This document shows, piece by piece, positions 173-23,596 of a stretch of DNA of 26,816 bases (positions within the stretch are counted from its first letter, which is position 1; every line of letters begins with the position of its first letter). Both the position numbers and the translations under genes were made by a program. Location of the stretch: positions 1 through 26,816 of the IMG/VR virus record IMGVR_UViG_3300025072_000038. One strand, given 5' to 3'. This DNA is from a virus. A model generated the notes under the pieces. The model did no database searches and was not told the DNA's origin. It saw only the letters and a program-made list of their open reading frames with translations.

Positions 173-732
173 TCGTATTCAATCTCCAATCTGGATATTT
201 CACATGGATTAGTTGTTTGTGATGTTGATAGTTGGACCCGTGCATACTTGGCACGGTTACCAATTTTAAAACTACCAAATTGATAGTTAGCATAAACAAT
301 ACTATCAGTATTTAGATGAGCAGCTGCACTGGTCCCACGCATACCACGCTGGACAGTATGAGATGTTGTACCAGCCTCAATTACTTTCATTATTTCAGAA
401 TTGACTTTTATCCAATCACCGCTTCTTAATTTCGCAGTGCTTGATGTTGGCAGTGTTGTTGTTGTATCATCAATACCAGCAGATAGTATTGCACCAGTCG
501 CACCATCGTTGGCCCTAAATGTGCCTGTAAATGATTCATTATCAGAATCACCGTCAGTATACAAATTAAATGTTATATCGTCTGGACTCGAATATGTTGC
601 ATTTATACGTCTTACAAAAACCTTCCTGGCCAGATCCGTAAACTGAAACCAACCAGATTGCCTGTTCGTGGACAAGGCTTCTGTAGAATTAACAGGGCTT
701 AATTCATATACTATTCCATCATTTAAAGGCAT
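169..732 (-). CDS. Virion structural protein, RTGW-type module with an inserted domain
   Basis: This 187-residue protein starts at ATG 732, sharing a TAATG overlap with the stop of the repeat protein upstream. Residues about 10-70 (RQSGWFQFTDLARKVFVRRI) and about 150-187 (KIGNRAKYARVQLST) together match the C-terminal 116 residues of the 787-aa neighbour (RRTGW, ILRRLNVEY, RIGRRARN, VEVST). Between the halves sits an extra stretch of about 75 residues with TTTTLPTSSTAKLRSGDWIK and VQRGMRGTSAAAH. That pattern is common in phage structural proteins as a small beta domain. It therefore looks like a duplicated terminal module that gained a nested domain. A role in tail tip or fibre attachment is inferred from position. 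Confidence 0.75.
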   Translation of the reverse strand: MPLNDGIVYELSPVNSTEALSTNRQSGWFQFTDLARKVFVRRINATYSSPDDITFNLYTDGDSDNESFTGTFRANDGATGAILSAGIDDTTTTLPTSSTAKLRSGDWIKVNSEIMKVIEAGTTSHTVQRGMRGTSAAAHLNTDSIVYANYQFGSFKIGNRAKYARVQLSTSQTTNPCEISRLEIEYE

Positions 733-3095
733 TACGCATCTACCTCCACACCTAAATTTTCGATTGTAACATTAGCATTTGAACTTGGATCCGTTGATAC
801 TTCCACCATAAAGTTTCTTGCTCTCCTACCTATTCTCACGCTTTTATTTATTGTTTCCGGGGTAACACCAGCAGCCAATGTATAAGAATAAATTTCATTT
901 ACATCGTCACCATCTGCAAAGATCTTGACATCCACGGGATCCGCAGAATTGTATTCGACATTTAACCTTCGCAGTATAGTAGCACGACTTAAATTTTCTG
1001 ATGCTTTAATCCAACCGGTCCTTCGGCTGGTCCCGAAAACTTCTGTTGGGTTATCCTCAAATGGCAGCACTCTAGCATTGATAATCAGACCAATTTCAGC
1101 CACTACATCTTCAACAAATCCAACAGTATCTGAAGCCGCAATTTTTATTGGGGAAACGCTTATGCTTTCAGCAAAAGCAACAACTTCAGATATCACAAAC
1201 AAATGTTTCCAAACCGTAATAATCGGGGTTACTACTTCTGAAAATACTGGAGTCTCTGATAGATTATCATAATTGTGGAACCACAAGCTTGTTGCAGCAA
1301 TAATCTCTTCTGAAAAACCAACATCCTCTGATAACGAATATATGTGTTTCCAAGTCCTGGTGACTGGAGTTACGTCTTCTGAAAATGCTGTAAATTCACC
1401 TTTTTCAAATGGAGTTAATACCCAATGCCCAACAGAATCAGCCGAAAACTGGGTTGAATCCGATACGCTAAATATATGTTTCCAAGTTCTTACAGCATCT
1501 GTCACACTTTCACTAAACGCAACAGTATCACTTGGACTAAATATATGTTTCCATGTTCTTACAACATCCGTCACACTTTCACTAAACGCAACAGTATCAC
1601 TTGAACTAAATATATGTTTCCATGTACTTACAACATCCGTCACACTTTCACTAAAGCCAACAGTATCAACTGAAATCTTCCCACTTATTATTTCAGATTC
1701 AGTACCCTCACTAAACACAACAGTCTCACTTGGACTAAATATGTGTTTCCAAGTTCTTACAACATCCGTCACACTTTCACTTAAACCGACAGAGTCACTG
1801 GCCGGCTTAATATGTTTCCATGTTCTTACAACATCCGTCACACTTTCACTTAAACCAACAGTATCAACTGAAATCTTCCCACTTATTATTTCAGATTCAG
1901 TACCTTCACTAAAGCCAGTAGTGTCACTTGGACTAAATATATGGATCCAAGTTCTTGTGCTTTTACTAACAACATCACTTAAACCGACAGAGTCACTGGC
2001 CGGCTTAATATGTTTCCATGTTCTTACAGCATCCGTCACACCTTCACTAAAGCCAGCAGTGTCATGAGTATATTTTGTGCTTATTATTCCAGTAATATGA
2101 CCTTCTGTAAATCCAACAGTATCTGATGGACTATAATCATGGATCCAAGTCCTAACTGACTTTGATACTGATTCACTAAAGCCAACAGTGTCACTTGGAC
2201 TATAATCATGGATCCAGGTCCTAACTGACTTTGATACTGATTCACTAAAGCCAACAGTATCACTTGAAAGTTTGGTGGAGGTGATCCAAGAAACACATTT
2301 GTCTTCAACAAAGCCAACAGTATCTGATGGACTATAAGCATGGATCCAAGTTCTTATGCTTTTACTAACAACTTCATTTATTCCAAGCTGCCATACAGAG
2401 TCACTTGCCGGCTTGATATGTTTCCAGGTTCTTGTTGACTTTGATACTGATTCAACAAAACCAGAGGTGTCTATTGTTCTTTTTGAACTTACTATTCCAG
2501 CAAGAAATTTTTCTTTCCATTTGACAGAATCTGATGGACTATAATCGTGGATCCAAGTTCTTGTGCTTTTACTAACACTTTCACTTAAACCAACAGAATC
2601 ACTGGCCGGCTTAATATACCTCCAAATACTTACTGATTTACTAACCTGCTCGGAAATGAGATTAGTATCAGCTGGGGATTTGACTATCTTATATTCTTCT
2701 ACTGTTTTGGTAATAGATTCATTAAAACCAACAGAATCACTTGCGGTTTTGATGGTGGGTGGATAAGTAGCATGTATTTCAAATGCGGGACTATAATCAA
2801 CAGCACTCCCAGTTATCCCCGAAATCTTTATTTTATAATCTGTACCACTACCACTTAAATCACCACCGGCTACCGTCCAGTTAAAAGATCCATCACAAGG
2901 GGTAGAGTTGGTAAGAACTGCTGACCCGGAGGATCCCTTGAATAGTTGTATTTTTACATTTGGTACGCTACCACCCCAGGTCCAAGTAATATTAATACTA
3001 TCAGAAATATATAACTCGGTATTAGCAGTCGGGTTTGTTACCGTTATGGTCCCCGGTTGTGTTATGGTAAATGTGCTTGATGTTATAATCGCCAC
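732..3095 (-). CDS. Repeat-rich tail fibre/adhesin-like structural protein
   Basis: This 787-residue protein starts at GTG 3095, overlapping the previous stop as TAGTG. Residues about 15-110 form an Ig-like domain of the Kre9/KNH (Ser-Thr-rich anchor) type, with VTNPTANTELYISDSINITW, VKIQLFKG, GTDYKIKI and DYSPAFEI. Residues about 115-671 are about 25 degenerate tandem repeats of 20-23 residues (consensus FSPSDTVGFSESVTDVVRTW then KHI). Residues 672-787 are a module shared with the next gene downstream (RRTGWIKASENLSRATILRR). The N-terminal Ig domain, repeat stalk and C-terminal head suggest a fibre or adhesin on the virion. No chaperone, enzyme or signal peptide is seen. The structural role is inferred from late-operon position. 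Confidence 0.8.
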   Translation of the reverse strand: MAIITSSTFTITQPGTITVTNPTANTELYISDSINITWTWGGSVPNVKIQLFKGSSGSAVLTNSTPCDGSFNWTVAGGDLSGSGTDYKIKISGITGSAVDYSPAFEIHATYPPTIKTASDSVGFNESITKTVEEYKIVKSPADTNLISEQVSKSVSIWRYIKPASDSVGLSESVSKSTRTWIHDYSPSDSVKWKEKFLAGIVSSKRTIDTSGFVESVSKSTRTWKHIKPASDSVWQLGINEVVSKSIRTWIHAYSPSDTVGFVEDKCVSWITSTKLSSDTVGFSESVSKSVRTWIHDYSPSDTVGFSESVSKSVRTWIHDYSPSDTVGFTEGHITGIISTKYTHDTAGFSEGVTDAVRTWKHIKPASDSVGLSDVVSKSTRTWIHIFSPSDTTGFSEGTESEIISGKISVDTVGLSESVTDVVRTWKHIKPASDSVGLSESVTDVVRTWKHIFSPSETVVFSEGTESEIISGKISVDTVGFSESVTDVVSTWKHIFSSSDTVAFSESVTDVVRTWKHIFSPSDTVAFSESVTDAVRTWKHIFSVSDSTQFSADSVGHWVLTPFEKGEFTAFSEDVTPVTRTWKHIYSLSEDVGFSEEIIAATSLWFHNYDNLSETPVFSEVVTPIITVWKHLFVISEVVAFAESISVSPIKIAASDTVGFVEDVVAEIGLIINARVLPFEDNPTEVFGTSRRTGWIKASENLSRATILRRLNVEYNSADPVDVKIFADGDDVNEIYSYTLAAGVTPETINKSVRIGRRARNFMVEVSTDPSSNANVTIENLGVEVDA
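1083..2753 (-). repeat. About 25 tandem repeats of roughly 60-69 bp within the fibre gene
   Basis: The coding DNA for residues 115-671 is an array of units encoding SDTVGFSES-x-RTWKHI-like segments. Several neighbouring units are nearly identical at DNA level: the plus-strand string tgtttccatgttcttacaac recurs around 1545-1565 and 1815-1835, and near-copies lie between. Two unit families alternate, one ending RTW(K/I)H and one ending IISGKI or IISTKY. High DNA identity between units implies recent duplication and potential for recombinational length change. Confidence 0.9.
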
Positions 3096-12213: not shown

Positions 12214-12425
12214 TAGTTTGCCTCTATTTCAATTCCATTTAAACTTTGTTCCGTTACCTGATTAACGATAGTAATAAGTGCCTGTCTATAATCAAAAGAT
12301 ATGGCACCCAATGCTTCTATACGTTCTATTTCTCGGATTACATTACCTATTGCTGGGATCTCTTTCTCTTCCCATTCTCCAGTCTCTGGATTAAACCATT
12401 GCAGATTTATAGGTCTAATTATCAT
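12213..12425 (-). CDS. Small protein between terminase and portal, unknown function
   Basis: This 70-residue protein starts at ATG 12425, overlapping the terminase stop as ATGA, and ends in TAATG with the portal start. It has an N-terminal beta part with QWFNPETGEWEEKEIPAIGN and a helical C-terminal half (REIERIEALGAISFDYRQAL). No known domain is recognised. The tight coupling on both sides suggests it is made in step with the packaging proteins. Confidence 0.7.
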   Translation of the reverse strand: MIIRPINLQWFNPETGEWEEKEIPAIGNVIREIERIEALGAISFDYRQALITIVNQVTEQSLNGIEIEAN

Positions 12426-13795
12426 GCTCTGACTCCTGTATAATCCGTTTCTTCTGATAATAATTTATCTAATTCCTTCTGTAACCATGGCTTCTGTACT
12501 ACCTTGGTTGGAGATCCTACATAATGTAAAAAATACCTCATTTGATCAGCATGGTGGTCCTCACCCTTTGTGTTTAGATCCTCCGGCCTTTTCTCATCGT
12601 GGACTAGGGTTGGTATTGTTCTTATGAAATTTGGACAGGTTGAAAATACTTTTAACTTTGGCGGCTGCTCTGCATAGTGATCTATGTACTGACGGCATAG
12701 GTTCCAACCATTAACTCTTTCATTATTAGCTTTAAATAGATTGACTCCAGCACGATTTAAAATATCAGCAATGCTCATATTACTTGGTGCTACTATATCG
12801 CTCCTATTTGTGTTCTGTGGATTACGGATCCACATACTAGGATCTCCTACTGACATCATATATTCTTCTTGACCACTTAATTCTAATATCCTATCTATGT
12901 GGTGACTTAACTCTTGGCCAGCTTCGTAATGCTCACGATATAAGTAAACATTCCCGAAAAAGTCTACAGCCCACCAACCACAGGCAAATGGTGCTGCAAA
13001 ACCATAGTCAATAGATCTATACCGGTACCACTCATGTGGTATGTCGAAAGGCTCTACTACATGAATGTCATGCCGCCACTTTTGAAAGAACTGTCCAGAG
13101 AATACATCCCAATCTCCATCTAACCAGGCACGCCTTAATTCATCCGGTAATGCCTTCAAACTCTCAATATACTCCGGATCTTCACGCATAATAGTAGGGT
13201 TATCTGTTACCTTACTGGGTATAAAAATCCGTGATTTTCTGCTTTTCTTGTCAAAGTGTGTTTTGTTCTTGGCACTATCTACAAACCTGGCCTTCACCCA
13301 ACCATGGCCAGGACCCCCGGGGTTTGTTGTCGCAAATACCTGGGACGAGATCCCTGGAATTGTACTTCGTGCTGATGAGATTAATCTTAAATAATCTAAC
13401 TCATTAGGGATTAGAGTTAACTCCTCAATTGCAATTTTCTGGTACTCCTGGCCAAGATACTTTGTCCAGGCATCTTCATTACTCAAGTGACCGGTCCAGA
13501 TCTTGGCTCCAGATGGAAATTCAAACTGGGCTGGATTACCGGTTACCTTTACTCCCATATAACGGTACATATGCTTGGCACGATCTATCCAGTCCTTCAG
13601 ATCATCGTAATTACGCCTGATTACTAAACCCCTGTATCTAGGACTCTTTATATACTCCGGATCTACCATCCAGACAGTCATCGCTTCAGTCTTGCCACCA
13701 CCCCTGGATCCACCAAATAAGATCTCACTCTCCTGTCTGGTTAATACTTTAGTCTGGGGACCCGGATGGGGCTGCCATATGACTCGCTCTTCCAT
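12422..13795 (-). CDS. terL: Terminase large subunit (packaging ATPase and nuclease)
   Basis: This 457-residue protein starts at ATG 13795 in a TAATG overlap. Walker A is GGSRGGGKT (residues 28-36). The Walker B acidic pair is IAIEEL (121-126), and a coupling motif is ATTNP (155-159). The nuclease domain shows Asp263 in SIDYGF, Asp318 in SVGDPSMW and a late acidic site in EDHHADQMRY. This is a complete two-domain motor that hydrolyses ATP to pump DNA into the procapsid and then cuts it. Flanking genes (DUF5681 protein upstream, portal downstream) fit. Its first codons (ATGGAAGAGCG) are duplicated 253 bp upstream. Confidence 0.95.
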   Translation of the reverse strand: MEERVIWQPHPGPQTKVLTRQESEILFGGSRGGGKTEAMTVWMVDPEYIKSPRYRGLVIRRNYDDLKDWIDRAKHMYRYMGVKVTGNPAQFEFPSGAKIWTGHLSNEDAWTKYLGQEYQKIAIEELTLIPNELDYLRLISSARSTIPGISSQVFATTNPGGPGHGWVKARFVDSAKNKTHFDKKSRKSRIFIPSKVTDNPTIMREDPEYIESLKALPDELRRAWLDGDWDVFSGQFFQKWRHDIHVVEPFDIPHEWYRYRSIDYGFAAPFACGWWAVDFFGNVYLYREHYEAGQELSHHIDRILELSGQEEYMMSVGDPSMWIRNPQNTNRSDIVAPSNMSIADILNRAGVNLFKANNERVNGWNLCRQYIDHYAEQPPKLKVFSTCPNFIRTIPTLVHDEKRPEDLNTKGEDHHADQMRYFLHYVGSPTKVVQKPWLQKELDKLLSEETDYTGVRA

Positions 13796-14194: not shown

Positions 14195-14683
14195 CTAATC
14201 CGGGACTCCTACTTCCGAAGGTGGGGGGGGGTCTTTTTCCTGGACGACTTCTGCTGGGGATGAGTAATTTGACTGGCTGTCTCTTACCCCACCCTCGCTA
14301 TATAGGGGAACATGGGTGGGGGTGGGGGGGGTCCTCGCCTGGTCATTATCATCACCTGGCAGCACCTCCAGGTCTGTCAGATCTATAGGCACCTTGCCAG
14401 GCATCATTATTACCCCTATATGGTTCTGCACATCAGTCTTTATTTCCTGTGCTTTCAGGTCAGGTGCTATCTTGTTGGCCACTATTTTCCAGGCATCCTT
14501 CTGTCTTGGATCATTATCATCTAGTGCAGCAGCCAATATCTTCTCTATCACTAGAGGCACAGATGGGTGCTCCCTCAAGTACTTGCCAAAGTGACTAGGC
14601 TTACGGCCACCAGGGTTACCGCTTACACCTGGCACCCAGTTGGGGTTGCCACCCTTACGCTTCATCTTGCCGTTCTTCTTCAT
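14195..14683 (-). CDS. DUF5681-type protein, putative terminase small subunit
   Basis: I start at ATG 14683 (162 residues). An in-frame TTG lies six codons upstream at 14701, but the -10 box at 14706-14711 would put transcription start at about that TTG. The N-terminus is very basic (MKKNGKMKRKGGNPNWVPG) and then shows the DUF5681 signature VPGVSGNPGGRKPS, followed by helices (PLVIEKILAAALDDNDPRQK, AWKIVANKIAPDLKAQ). Proteins of this type often stand next to terL and are taken as small terminases, which bind the packaging site. The C-terminal 50 residues are Pro/Ser-rich low complexity (ARTPPTPTHVPL, KDPPPPSEVG), written with long C runs. First gene of the late operon. Confidence 0.6.
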   Translation of the reverse strand: MKKNGKMKRKGGNPNWVPGVSGNPGGRKPSHFGKYLREHPSVPLVIEKILAAALDDNDPRQKDAWKIVANKIAPDLKAQEIKTDVQNHIGVIMMPGKVPIDLTDLEVLPGDDNDQARTPPTPTHVPLYSEGGVRDSQSNYSSPAEVVQEKDPPPPSEVGVPD

Positions 14684-14689
14684 AGTACT

Positions 14690-14706
14690 ACTACGTTCCA
14701 ACTACA
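14690..14706 (-). promoter_or_regulatory. Operator-like pair TGTAGT-N5-CGTAGT at the late transcription start
   Basis: On the minus strand TGTAGTTGGAACGTAGT starts on the last base of the late -10 box and covers the expected transcription start. It matches TGTAGTTGGAATGTAGT at 23546-23562 at 16 of 17 bases and TGTAGTTGGATTGTAGT at 23346-23362 at 15 of 17. The 11-bp box spacing is identical. A protein bound here would block or modulate late transcription. Confidence 0.6.
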
Positions 14707-14714: not shown

Positions 14715-14815
14715 ATTGCAATAGGGTTCTCCCGGTGGACATACGCCTAATGAGCCAATGATACTGCTTTCCACAATAAGACCCCTTAATTAGTGGTCCT
14801 TAATGTTCATTGACA

Positions 14816-14862
14816 ATGATCCAGGATCCGGCAGCATGATCCAGGATCCGGCAGCATGATCC
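14816..14862. repeat. Tandem 20-bp direct repeats in the divergent control region
   Basis: ATGATCCAGGATCCGGCAGC occurs at 14816-14835 and 14836-14855 without a change, followed by a partial third copy (ATGATCC). Each unit holds the palindrome GGATCC. Placed between the late promoter and the integrase gene, it could be a protein-binding array or part of an attachment site. The rest of 14715-15060 holds promoter-like elements and no convincing gene. Confidence 0.85.
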
Positions 14863-14916
14863 CGATTCCTGGGGATTGCCAGCGTGGCTGATTAAACTAA
14901 TTTTTACTTTATTCAC

Positions 14917-14927
14917 ACTACATTATA
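14917..14927 (-). promoter_or_regulatory. Second TATAATGTAGT element beside the integrase promoter
   Basis: The minus strand reads TATAATGTAGT, the same 11 bases as at the late promoter (14701-14711). It contains one TGTAGT box (14917-14922). The position 11 bp on reads TAAAGT, four of six matches. The box touches the -10 of the proposed rightward integrase promoter. Confidence 0.45.
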
Positions 14928-14929
14928 AT
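14924..14929 (+). promoter_or_regulatory. Candidate rightward promoter for the integrase operon
   Basis: A perfect TATAAT at 14924-14929 lies about 130 bases before the integrase ATG. The best -35 (TTTACT, 14903-14908) is weak and the spacer is only 15 bp. The long leader includes an 18-codon ORF from 14974 of uncertain meaning. The integrase itself has a clear AAGGAG at 15047-15052. Confidence 0.4.
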
Positions 14930-15060
14930 ATGACCGATTTATCTTCAGCAAACACAATCGAAGAAAATCATTTATGAAACTTTCCCTTGCTTTTAAAGTT
15001 ATACTTGTATACCTTTATTGTAGATTATGAATCAATTAAACAACATAAGGAGACTAAATC

Positions 15061-16203
15061 ATGGCTAGTGTTTATAAAAGGGGAGACATTTACTGGGCTA
15101 ATTTCAGCACAGCAGATGGATCTCAAAACGCTGTCAGTACCAAGATTCGGATTTCAGTTTATGGTCCTAGGAAAGCCAGGCAATTAGCTTTAGAACAGGC
15201 TATCAAATGGGAGCGTAATGAAGTTGACAAACGAGTCAGTGGTATTGATTTTGCTAGTTTAGTGGATTCCATTTCTACACTGGATCCATCTGACAAGACC
15301 AAACTAGCACTCGTTCTGGTCGATCACCTACCAGACAGTTATCAAACAAATGGTGATACTCTCACATCAACAATAACATATAGTGATTGCCGTGACAAAT
15401 GGCTTTCCAAGGTAAGCAGCCGGAAATCAGCTGACTGGATAAAACGAGAAATCGTATGCCATAGATTCTTTATTGAATTCGTTGGTGGTGATACTCTCAT
15501 AAGTTCAGTTACAACAGAGAATGTTGATGATTTCATCGTCAGCCGGGAAGGACTAGGCAAGGCAGCCAACACGATTAACAACTACCTCAAACCGGTATCG
15601 CAGCTATTCAATTATGCAGTTGCGAATGACCTGGTCACGAAGAATCCTGTTAAGTATGCACAGAAGCCTGGTACGGCAACTGTTGTAGAATGGGATTACA
15701 TTCCTGACGATGCATTTGATATAGTAATCAACGATGCTAACGATTCAGATAAAATCTTCTGGACCTGGTTGCGGTACACCGCTTTGAACCCTAAAGATGT
15801 AAGTGCCTTAACTCCCACCAGCATCGAAGCTGACAACAAGGGTAACGGCAGACACATAAATGGGAAAAGAGCGAAGAACGGCAGACTGGCCAGGATCCCG
15901 GTTCATCCCAATATTGAGAAGGCTATCTCAACTTATGGTGATGATTGTTTTGGGATATATCCTAGCAAGAGTGCCAGGGACAAATCGAACAAGAGATTCA
16001 AGGCAGCACTCGCCAGCCAGGGGATCTATAGTGTGATTGCAGCAATCAGACACACCTGTGCTACCAACCTTCTAGAATCAGGATTAAGTCTAGATGACGT
16101 TGCACTGATCATGGGTCACAGTGATACCACAATGCTCAAAAAGATCTATGTCAAGCATGTGGATCAGGTTAAGGCATACGAAGCCGTTAAGCGGCTGAAG
16201 TAA
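15061..16203 (+). CDS. int: Tyrosine recombinase/integrase with altered catalytic residues
   Basis: This 380-residue protein starts at ATG 15061, eight bases after AAGGAG. The N-terminus MASVYKRGDIYWANFS is the arm-binding SVYKRG style. Residues about 105-185 form the SAM-like core-binding domain (SADWIKREIVCHRFFIEFVG). The catalytic domain ends with IRHTCATNLLESGLSLDDVA, MGHSDTTM and KKIYVKH, giving Arg330, His353 and nucleophile Tyr363; Lys272 is in place. However, the first catalytic Arg (TGxRxxE) aligns with Asn243 in TALNPKDVSAL, and the usual box-II His (HxLR) is Ala327 in AAIR. Integration and excision role is known for the family; normal activity is doubtful for this copy. Confidence 0.85.
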   Translation: MASVYKRGDIYWANFSTADGSQNAVSTKIRISVYGPRKARQLALEQAIKWERNEVDKRVSGIDFASLVDSISTLDPSDKTKLALVLVDHLPDSYQTNGDTLTSTITYSDCRDKWLSKVSSRKSADWIKREIVCHRFFIEFVGGDTLISSVTTENVDDFIVSREGLGKAANTINNYLKPVSQLFNYAVANDLVTKNPVKYAQKPGTATVVEWDYIPDDAFDIVINDANDSDKIFWTWLRYTALNPKDVSALTPTSIEADNKGNGRHINGKRAKNGRLARIPVHPNIEKAISTYGDDCFGIYPSKSARDKSNKRFKAALASQGIYSVIAAIRHTCATNLLESGLSLDDVALIMGHSDTTMLKKIYVKHVDQVKAYEAVKRLK

Positions 16204-16561: not shown

Positions 16562-16708
16562 ATGATGAACCTTCTTGATATTCTTAACTACCAGCCGCTA
16601 GGTGACCATGGTGTAAATTCCCTATTAAGCATTAGGATGTTTCATATCATTTCACTAACCTTGTTGGCCTGGGTGCACAAGGTATACAAAAGGAGCGAAG
16701 AAGAATAA
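16562..16708 (+). CDS. 48-residue small membrane protein
   Basis: ATG 16562 lies behind GAGGAG (16549-16554) and the stop overlaps the next start as TAATG. The sequence starts MMNLLDILNYQPLGDHGVNS. It has one hydrophobic segment (LLSIRMFHIISLTLLAWVHK) near the C-terminus and ends in a charged KRSEEE tail. It is a probable single-span protein of unknown role. Confidence 0.55.
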   Translation: MMNLLDILNYQPLGDHGVNSLLSIRMFHIISLTLLAWVHKVYKRSEEE

Positions 16709-16914
16709 TGGCGAAGCCAGTAACAGAATATAAACTTGTTAAGATACAAATCAGTAACCAGGAACATGACCGGATCCACCAGGTGGCCAAGGAACTCAAG
16801 GTGAGTTACCAAAGCCTGGTAGGATCTATTCTACGTCAGTATCTTACTGATGTGGGTCGGCCACTGATAATCCGCAGTCTTCAAGTTGAACAGGGAGAGC
16901 CAGAATCCAGGTGA
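16708..16914 (+). CDS. Ribbon-helix-helix (Arc/CopG-like) DNA-binding protein
   Basis: This 68-residue protein starts at ATG 16708 in TAATG with the previous gene. The segment TEYKLVKIQISNQEHDRIHQ gives a short beta strand (KLVKIQIS) followed by a helix (EHDRIHQVAKEL). A tight turn (KVSYQ) and a second helix (SLVGSILRQYL) complete the pattern of the ribbon-helix-helix family, which binds DNA as dimers through the strand. It is the last gene before the terminator. As the only obvious repressor-like protein in the window it is a candidate for controlling the late, int or early promoters. That role is inference. Confidence 0.65.
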   Translation: MAKPVTEYKLVKIQISNQEHDRIHQVAKELKVSYQSLVGSILRQYLTDVGRPLIIRSLQVEQGEPESR

Positions 16915-22231: not shown

Positions 22232-22792
22232 TTAAAGGCAGCAACGCTTGTATTTATGGCCACTGCCACATAAGCATGCTGCATTTCTCCCAGGTGTTTT
22301 AATTATTTTGGGTTTCTTAACCTGGGTTATTGTTATTCCCCGCAAATGATCCATCTCATGTTGCATAATCACCGCAGCTTTTCCGGTGAATAATTGAGGT
22401 TTTTTAAATTCAGCACAGGTAACCACCACCTCTTCATACCGCCATTTATTTTTATAAGTGCCTGGAAATGACAAACAACCTTCGTTTTTAAATATAAACA
22501 TATTGCCTTCCATCTTGATTTCGGGATTGGTAAACATCTGGTTAGTGATACTAACCGATTCATTATTCACATAAAACACTGTTTTGGGGATCCCGATTTG
22601 GGGTGCAGCCAAAGCATAGGCACAACTAGACAAGTTGTGCTCATCCCACCAAGTTCTCAATGCTTTATGTAGTTTTCTTTTTTCTGTCCATTTAACCTTT
22701 GTGATATTATCAACAACAAGCTGGTCCCGGATATCAAATTTCATAATCTTTATGTGAGCCGCTTCTTGTCTAGTCTGCCTAGTCTGTATCAA
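22232..22792 (-). CDS. def: Peptide deformylase fused to a SEC-C zinc motif
   Basis: Start at TTG 22792 because GGGGAGG lies six bases upstream; ATG 22744 has none. The 186-residue protein has all three deformylase motifs: YALAAPQIG (59-67), EGCLSFP (104-110, metal ligand Cys106) and QHEMDH (144-149, His145, Glu146, His149). It should remove the formyl group from new proteins. After a short linker, residues 168-186 (GRNAACLCGSGHKYKRCCL) form a SEC-C motif, the zinc knuckle known from the SecA C-terminus, with Cys173, Cys175, Cys184, Cys185. Phage deformylases are known; this C-terminal knuckle is unusual and could target the enzyme to ribosomes or SecB-like partners. Confidence 0.9.
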   Translation of the reverse strand: MIQTRQTRQEAAHIKIMKFDIRDQLVVDNITKVKWTEKRKLHKALRTWWDEHNLSSCAYALAAPQIGIPKTVFYVNNESVSITNQMFTNPEIKMEGNMFIFKNEGCLSFPGTYKNKWRYEEVVVTCAEFKKPQLFTGKAAVIMQHEMDHLRGITITQVKKPKIIKTPGRNAACLCGSGHKYKRCCL

Positions 22793-22952
22793 CCAATGCC
22801 TCCCCTGGTTTTATGAAATGCCTGTAACAATACCTTGGAATAGTTTCTTTAATGAGAATCAACCTTGCTTTAATCTTTTTACCACAAACCTTACAACCAT
22901 GTTTACTTAATTTTGTATAAGGATAATGAACACCATTAAATATTTTTCTCAT
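22779..22952 (-). CDS. 57-residue zinc-binding protein between excisionase and deformylase
   Basis: ATG 22952 overlaps the upstream stop as ATGA, and the stop at 22781-22779 lies 14 bases inside the deformylase gene. It begins MRKIFNGVHYPYTKLSKHGC. CKVC (20-23) and, after a helix, YCYRHF (41-46) give a Cys2-Cys-His set for one zinc. The protein is very basic, so nucleic acid binding is plausible. Confidence 0.65.
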   Translation of the reverse strand: MRKIFNGVHYPYTKLSKHGCKVCGKKIKARLILIKETIPRYCYRHFIKPGEALVDTD

Positions 22953-23134
22953 ATACTACTGACTGTTCTCTTTTTGGTTTTAAAGTCAGCTAGATCTTTT
23001 GAGTCTATGCGGTAGGATCTATACCCCAACCGATATGCTGGCAACACTTTGTCTTTAATGAGTCTTCGCACTTGGATTACTGACACAGATAGTTGGTCTG
23101 CGACCTGTTTGATAGTGAGTAGATTTCCCGCCAT
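22949..23134 (-). CDS. xis: Excisionase-like helix-turn-helix protein
   Basis: This 61-residue protein starts at ATG 23134 behind TAGGAG. It matches the MerR/excisionase HTH fold: LTIKQVADQLSVSVIQVRRL (recognition helices), IKDKVLPAYRLGYRSYRIDS (wing) and KDLADFKTKK. It is the first gene of the early operon. In many temperate phages such a protein directs excision together with the integrase; others act as small transcription regulators. The gene symbol is tentative. The phased TGTAGT boxes lie about 190 bp upstream. Confidence 0.75.
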   Translation of the reverse strand: MAGNLLTIKQVADQLSVSVIQVRRLIKDKVLPAYRLGYRSYRIDSKDLADFKTKKRTVSSI

Positions 23135-23205: not shown

Positions 23206-23561
23206 ATAATTTTCCACCAGAGTGTACCCTATCTACCCTCCACGGCCAACACTAATCAAGTGCCAGCACCAACCCCGGTGGTTTCTTGATGTCTCAAAAT
23301 GCGATATCAATATACGGTAACATTGTAGTAATAGTGTAGTATAAGTGTAGTTGGATTGTAGTAATGAACGGATACTTTCTGTATTGAATGAATACAATTA
23401 GCATACTTTTGATAGGAATAACAAGCGTGTTACCCTTCGACAAAATATCATCCGAGGGAGAATCTCCGTCACAAGCTTATCAGGCGTGTTGCACGCTTTC
23501 CAAGCCCGTGCAGAACCGTCAATAAATTGGTGCTATGTTGGTGAGTGTAGTTGGAATGTAG
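23206..23561. other. Non-coding control region between late and early operons
   Basis: No credible gene is seen on either strand in these 356 bases. They hold two sets of 11-bp phased TGTAGT boxes (entered separately), a perfect inverted repeat TGTATT-GAATG-AATACA (23380-23396) and a hairpin GCGTG-TTG-CACGC (23484-23496). The central part is a good place for a phage attachment core or operators. Confidence 0.7.
23324..23362 (+). promoter_or_regulatory. Four TGTAGT boxes phased at exactly 11 bp
   Basis: TGTAGT starts at 23324, 23335, 23346 and 23357, each followed by five variable bases. The strict 11-bp step puts each box near the same DNA face. This is the layout of operator arrays for ribbon-helix-helix repressors and of arm-type sites of tyrosine integrases. 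Confidence 0.75.
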
Positions 23562-23562
23562 T
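23546..23562 (+). promoter_or_regulatory. Pair of TGTAGT boxes at 11-bp spacing
   Basis: TGTAGTTGGAATGTAGT contains two boxes starting at 23546 and 23557, nearly identical to the pair at 23346-23362 (16 of 17) and to the one at the late promoter (16 of 17). It abuts the terminator of the lysis genes. Confidence 0.7.
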
Positions 23563-23596
23563 TAAAATGCGGGGAAGGTGAACAGCCCTCCCCCGC
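23562..23596 (-). terminator. Intrinsic terminator after the lysis genes
   Basis: On the minus strand GCGGGGGAGG (23596-23587) pairs with CCTTCCCCGC (23578-23569) over ten pairs with one G-T wobble and an 8-base loop, then ATTTTAA. It stands 12 bases after the endolysin stop and should end late transcription. Confidence 0.8.

Follow-up and report, generated by a model that had tools for sequence, protein, structure and literature searches.

Phased TGTAGT boxes beside an excisionase-like gene as the probable attP of a phage integrase, and a putative third, attL-like site at terS

Results and discussion

Phased boxes between the endolysin and excisionase-like genes

The window analysed here, i.e., the whole 26,816-nucleotide stretch of a 26.8-kb IMG/VR virus record, is part of a genome of about 42 kb, since the 141-bp ends of the near-complete relative G005 (42,073 bp) match each other at 98% and G002 bridges the two ends. 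Between the endolysin gene and xis, the window harbored six exact TGTAGT boxes in clusters of four and two, with every step within a cluster being 11 bp (Table 1), at the positions reported in an earlier sequence-only reading of this DNA. The TGGA(T/A) linker which that reading had regarded as kept in both clusters was indeed common to 23352-23356 and 23552-23556, but the first two linkers, AATAG and ATAAG, differ. The two perfect small inverted repeats described between the clusters (GTATT..AATAC and GGAGA-A-TCTCC) were likewise read from the sequence. Exactly one array of at least four identical hexamers at a fixed period was found in the window, with a period of 11, and none was obtained in 60 dinucleotide-preserving shuffles of the window when any fixed period from 7 to 30 was allowed (0/60), and a chance origin of the box array was rejected on this basis.

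Conservation of the box spacing in related phages, whose absence the sequence-only reading had listed as part of what would refute it, was observed. The close relatives comprised seven contigs with integrases 86-100% identical, and both of those spanning the xis interval (2/2) kept the 4 + 2 array. Comparison of the window with G005 revealed identities of 97.6% for the P array, 100% for the P' pair, and 97-100% for the interval from the core to P', whereas the spacers around the P array were only 53-75% identical. In addition, a terminator-like hairpin next to the P' pair probably insulates this region from late transcription. Adjoining the early genes, the window also carries a gene for a peptide deformylase with a C-terminal SEC-C motif (22232-22792).

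Table 1. Positions of the genes and sequence features discussed in the text (strand as given; a dot marks features without strand)
Feature	Position	Strand	Evidence or remark
Large terminase gene	12422-13795		terS lies upstream of it
terS-like gene, first of the late operon	14195..14701	-	start TTG 14701 or ATG 14683; DUF5681 match weak
Third arm-type dyad, TGTAGTTGGAACGTAGT, at the terS start	14690..14706	-	kept in 7/7 close relatives beside terS; co-varies in diverged relatives
Degenerate third-site core remnant, reverse complement TGGCTCATTAGGCGTAT	14741..14757	.	alignment; relatives 13/14, window not
Putative late promoter	14922..14951	-	-10 TATAAT 14922-14927; -35-like TTGCTG 14946-14951; 5' to the third dyad
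int, tyrosine recombinase with predicted N-terminal arm-binding domain	15061..16203	+	Phage_integrase Pfam/PHROG matches
xis, 61-aa HTH_17 excisionase-like protein	22949..23134	-	Pfam HTH_17 5e-11; PHROG excisionase families; synteny kept in relatives
Four-box P-arm array, TGTAGT every 11 bp	23324..23362	+	starts 23324, 23335, 23346, 23357
IHF-like site, TATCAAAAGTATG, weak	23402..23414	-	1 mismatch to WATCAANNNNTTR
Conserved attP interior	23415..23545	.	96.9% to G005; includes the block that is a tRNA half in relatives
Second core-like palindrome, CAAGCTT-ATC-AGGCGTG, beside the core	23472..23488	.	palindrome scan
Proposed attP core, CACGCTT-TCC-AAGCCCG	23492..23508	.	12/14 positions of palindrome CACGCTTNNNAAGCGTG
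P'-arm pair, two TGTAGT boxes 11 bp apart	23546..23562	+	starts 23546, 23557
Terminator-like hairpin 3' of the endolysin gene	23569..23596	-	

Attachment-site anatomy in diverged relatives

Diverged relatives, whose integrases are 28-51% identical to that of the window, were retrieved by TerL searches. In these genomes the endolysin-xis interval, with the same gene order, harbored half a tRNA gene flanked by phased boxes, namely Ser(GGA) in G020, G022, and G015, Met in G024, and other tRNAs in G023 and G330 (identities were assigned by eye from the anticodon and T arms). Since these intervals show the anatomy of an attP, unmistakably so where the integrases are 28-48% identical, the phased boxes are interpreted as arm-type sites, and their repeated occurrence on both sides of a core is as in heterobivalent attP sites. 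As such, the first of the two explanations offered by the sequence-only reading, that of P and P' arm sites around an attachment core near xis, gained support from the syntenic relatives.

The box sequences differ among these phages (GTAGTAC in G022, TATAG in G015, TTGTGAC in G020, TTGCCACTA in G023, and GGGACAT in G024), and the four-box P geometry recurs with another box sequence in G022 and G015, together with P'-equivalent pairs in G022, G020, G023, G024, and G015. Counted from the core, the boxes are located at -171/-160/-149/-138 and +51/+62 in the window and at -169/-158/-147/-136 and +50/+61 in G022, so the 4 + 2 layout is equal within 2 bp though the two integrases are only about 28% identical. 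G330 deviates, with its boxes at a period of 10. A small HTH repressor-like gene lies between xis and attP in G020, G023, G024, and G330, and is absent from the window.

RHH repressors such as Arc bind with an 11-bp half-site spacing, and one dyad of this phage touches a promoter region, both of which would suit the second explanation of the sequence-only reading, in which the RHH protein (16708-16914) or another dimeric lysis-lysogeny regulator uses the boxes as operators. This explanation is now extremely unlikely, given that no RHH homologue was detectable in G024, G023, G022, and G015, all four of which carry phased boxes at the two corresponding loci, meaning that no cognate RHH regulator is conserved with the boxes. 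Moreover, operator arrays would leave unexplained why the clusters flank tRNA-half cores.

For the arm-site interpretation, the proposed core of the window is its best match to the palindrome CACGCTTNNNAAGCGTG, and the central TCC equals the GGA anticodon of tRNA-Ser on the opposite strand; in the relatives with a tRNA-Ser(GGA) half, the core is the anticodon arm. Inverted repeats thus surround a short overlap, with 12/14 palindrome positions in the window and 13-14/14 in G020, G022, and G015. Alignment with the diverged relatives defined the window core as CACGCTTTCCAAGC (CACGCTT-TCC-AAGC, 23492-23505). Neither Rfam nor ARAGORN recognised a tRNA in the window core or on its P side, and the attB of the window is not proven because its own P side is not recognisable as a tRNA half.

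A third dyad at the start of terS

A search allowing two mismatches returned a third dyad, TGTAGTTGGAACGTAGT, on the minus strand at the terS start, which the sequence-only reading did not include. A weaker dyad at 14906-14922 was considered as a fourth site and rejected, as it lies inside a -10-like element and is not conserved (lost in G007). In most relatives, the third dyad follows a promoter-like TATAAT/TATACT element by about 146 bp, and the third site shares sequence with a short leader ORF that precedes terS and has a ribosome-binding site. In the window, an insertion extends the spacing to about 221 bp, no clear leader ORF is seen, and the core of the third site is degenerate; a stricter promoter scan did not return the putative late promoter at 14922..14951.

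A 73-bp insert (14763-14835) between the late promoter and terS is absent from L007, L010, and G007. Across its edge runs a 20-bp tandem repeat, ATGATCCAGGATCCGGCAGC, at 14816-14855. Two copies of a 42-bp repeat, CCCACAGTAAGGGTGTAGTTTTCATGGGGCTTATTGTGGAAA, were also noted at a contig end upstream of xis in G007 (L030, 1-90), with ends resembling window positions 14767-14780.

Across six box types, the third site and the attP boxes change together. When each of the attP arm dyads of six phages was matched against the terS-int regions of all of them, the pairing of own arms with own third site was the single best of 720 permutations. Furthermore, genome-wide scans with the attP arms placed the best match not belonging to attP at the terS start in all genomes with 11-bp dyads (7/7). 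In G330 the third site was not the top genome-wide match, and a 17/20 match to its own P' was present there. No third site was detected in more distant relatives (TerL about 60%). This co-change also bears on the possibility that an older attP next to int left the terS-leader site behind as a relic maintained by descent only. Such a relic would account for the position of the site next to int, the usual place of an attP, and for the degenerate core in the lineage of the window, but co-change in six box types would need repeated gene conversion, and the relic explanation is accordingly considered unlikely.

In several relatives, the third site has a core in addition to the arm dyad. For the palindrome CACGCTTNNNAAGCGTG, the two best genome-wide sites were the attP core and the third site in G020, G022, and G015, and the third site ranked best in G016, G018, and G021. 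Its core-to-dyad distance about equals the distance from the attP core to P'. Wherever the third core is clear in a relative, its central triplet (CAT, AGT, ATT, or GTT) is not the TCC of the attP core, and mismatches would result from strand exchange between the two sites. With the same core arms and arm dyad in inverted orientation relative to attP, the terS-leader site could in principle serve as a second recombining site at which Int inverts the int-early region between the terS leader and attP. The differing triplets argue against this, and gene order was equal in all relatives, with no inverted isomer seen, making such an inversion very unlikely. From its sequence anatomy, the third site is instead inferred to be a binding-only, attL-like, non-recombining Int site in the late-operon leader.

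The integrase as the likely ligand of the boxes

The AlphaFold model of Int had a mean pLDDT of 79 (83-88 in the N-terminal domain) and presented a three-stranded sheet plus a helix at the N-terminus. Its best PDB match was full-length lambda Int (1z1b), arm-binding domain included, suggesting that the phage encodes a cognate tyrosine recombinase with a predicted N-terminal arm-binding domain. Across phages, box similarity and Int N-terminal identity were not significantly correlated beyond close pairs (rho 0.15, p 0.25). Because box similarity does not follow the identity of the Int N-terminus, Int over Xis as the box binder is not proven by sequence alone; it is the anatomy of the sites that points to Int instead of Xis.

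A further alternative is that the boxes are operators of a Xis/Cox-like protein. Such a protein, like P2 Cox or ICE RdfS, would form a filament along direct repeats and combine the excisionase function with repression of its own promoter and of late promoters. The phased direct repeats adjoin xis, whose product matches HTH_17, and winged helix-turn-helix directionality factors form oligomers in which each protomer covers about 10 bp, and they bind promoters as well as attP (PMC11963761). In this family, however, boxes flank the core on either side, and those at terS have a core palindrome at about the spacing seen for P'. Such an arrangement is that of Int arm and core sites, and not of a directionality factor, which would keep to a single arm. 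Moreover, RdfS acts without a consensus motif (PMC11963761), whereas the boxes here are exact. Operators of the Xis/Cox type are regarded as improbable, and the boxes are very probably integrase arm-type docking sites for insertion into the host.

Tyrosine recombinases usually carry the motifs TGxR, with the catalytic Arg I, and HxxR. Alignment of Int with its relatives revealed an atypical active site at residues 238-246 and 327-331, with TGLNP/TALNP (TGLSP in one) in place of TGxR and G/A/Y-x-x-R-H in place of HxxR.

Comparison with known attachment systems

The locus resembles the heterobivalent attP of lambda in that arm boxes flank a core, the predicted integrase is arm-binding, a small excisionase gene is present, and the core (here in the relatives) is a tRNA anticodon loop. 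It is unlike lambda in its arms of 4 + 2 direct repeats at exactly 11 bp, in an integrase without the canonical Arg I, and in its position, since attP adjoins xis about 7.3 kb from int, which itself adjoins the terminase genes. An attP far from int is unusual.

In the cluster K mycobacteriophages CrimD and Pixie, pairs of 11-bp repeats flanking the common core have been described as putative Int arm sites, with box sequences that drift between relatives, similar to the present family; there, attP adjoins int, and the available extract of that report describes no third site outside attP (PMC3203893). Repression of int by its own product from att sites is also known for KplE1 IntS and P4 Int, where the att region overlaps the int promoter (PMC2951348). 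Int bound at an att-like site would similarly regulate a nearby promoter in the present phages. In KplE1 and P4 it is the real attL that overlaps the int promoter, whereas the third site here is an additional copy, apparently without recombination, where the late (terS) operon begins. Its dyad is located some 355 bp away from the start of int and thus does not correspond to an Int-autoregulated int promoter.

ICEMlSymR7A shares with this phage several arm-type IntS sites (five in its attP), a winged helix-turn-helix directionality factor (RdfS), and, putatively in the phage, Int-mediated feedback, but it is an ICE, its directionality factor lacks a consensus motif, and no terminase leader site is involved (PMC11963761). 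The Fionnbharth-type attP has a short core in the tRNA anticodon region and does not rebuild the tRNA (PMC10865867). By analogy, a short core of this type is one possibility for the window attP, whose core may match it, unlike in that no compensating tRNA gene was found in G005 or the window.

A possible link between integration and late functions

Taken together, it is highly likely that 23324-23562 is the attP of a lambda-type integrase and that Int also binds the third attL-like site at terS. The N-terminal domain of Int would bind the four phased boxes of the P arm and the two of the P' arm, the 11-bp steps placing neighbouring protomers on one helix face, and the C-terminal domains would bind the core around its central TCC, which matches the GGA anticodon, with Xis setting the direction. 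The same Int would bind the core palindrome and P'-type dyad of the third site about 8.8 kb away, beside terS, and, given the differing central triplet, should do so without recombining.

Plentiful Int at the third site would then most likely block or tune the expression of the late operon (terS), or packaging, by acting as a roadblock to late transcription or in packaging control. A role of the third site in late-operon control or packaging is put forward tentatively. The broader proposal, namely that a dedicated non-recombining attL-like leader site evolving with attP lets Int couple the integration state to late expression or packaging, is given slightly less than even weight. If Int does act in the terminase leader, late genes or packaging would respond directly to whether the prophage is integrated or excised, through a recombinase and not through the usual repressor circuit. 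The box array itself is an ordinary kind of attP; the family, with the arm sites of one integrase changing together at three places, is a rare natural series from which arm-site recognition can be deduced comparatively.

Searches for host junctions and other carriers of the boxes

The sequence-only reading had suggested looking for an attB-like core shared at prophage ends. Pattern scans with both attP halves returned only the two known phage contigs, and no attB, attL, or attR was found. Alignment of TerL against bacterial genomes identified one MAG contig, ending beside a TerL gene whose product is 59% identical, with neither int nor a tRNA in the part scanned. This contig (L120, DQKQ01000231.1) belongs to a Flavobacteriales MAG and may be binned wrongly. 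A tRNA-half search in 296 genomes of the phylum of this MAG yielded matches of up to 91%, which were ordinary tRNA-Ser genes.

Other viral contigs containing TGTAGTTGGAWTGTAGT were also inspected as potential carriers of the system and discarded, as 17 of the 20 had unrelated single dyads, a number near our chance expectation. In two other phage contigs, the exact dyad TGTAGTTGGATTGTAGT (L044, 3832-3848; L051, 8021-8037) directly follows a TTGACA promoter-like element and precedes a gene start, possibly by chance. Finally, internal DNA repeats of the window at 732-3095 reflect a gene for a tail-like protein made of many diverged repeats (SDTVGFSESVTDVVRTWKHIF...).
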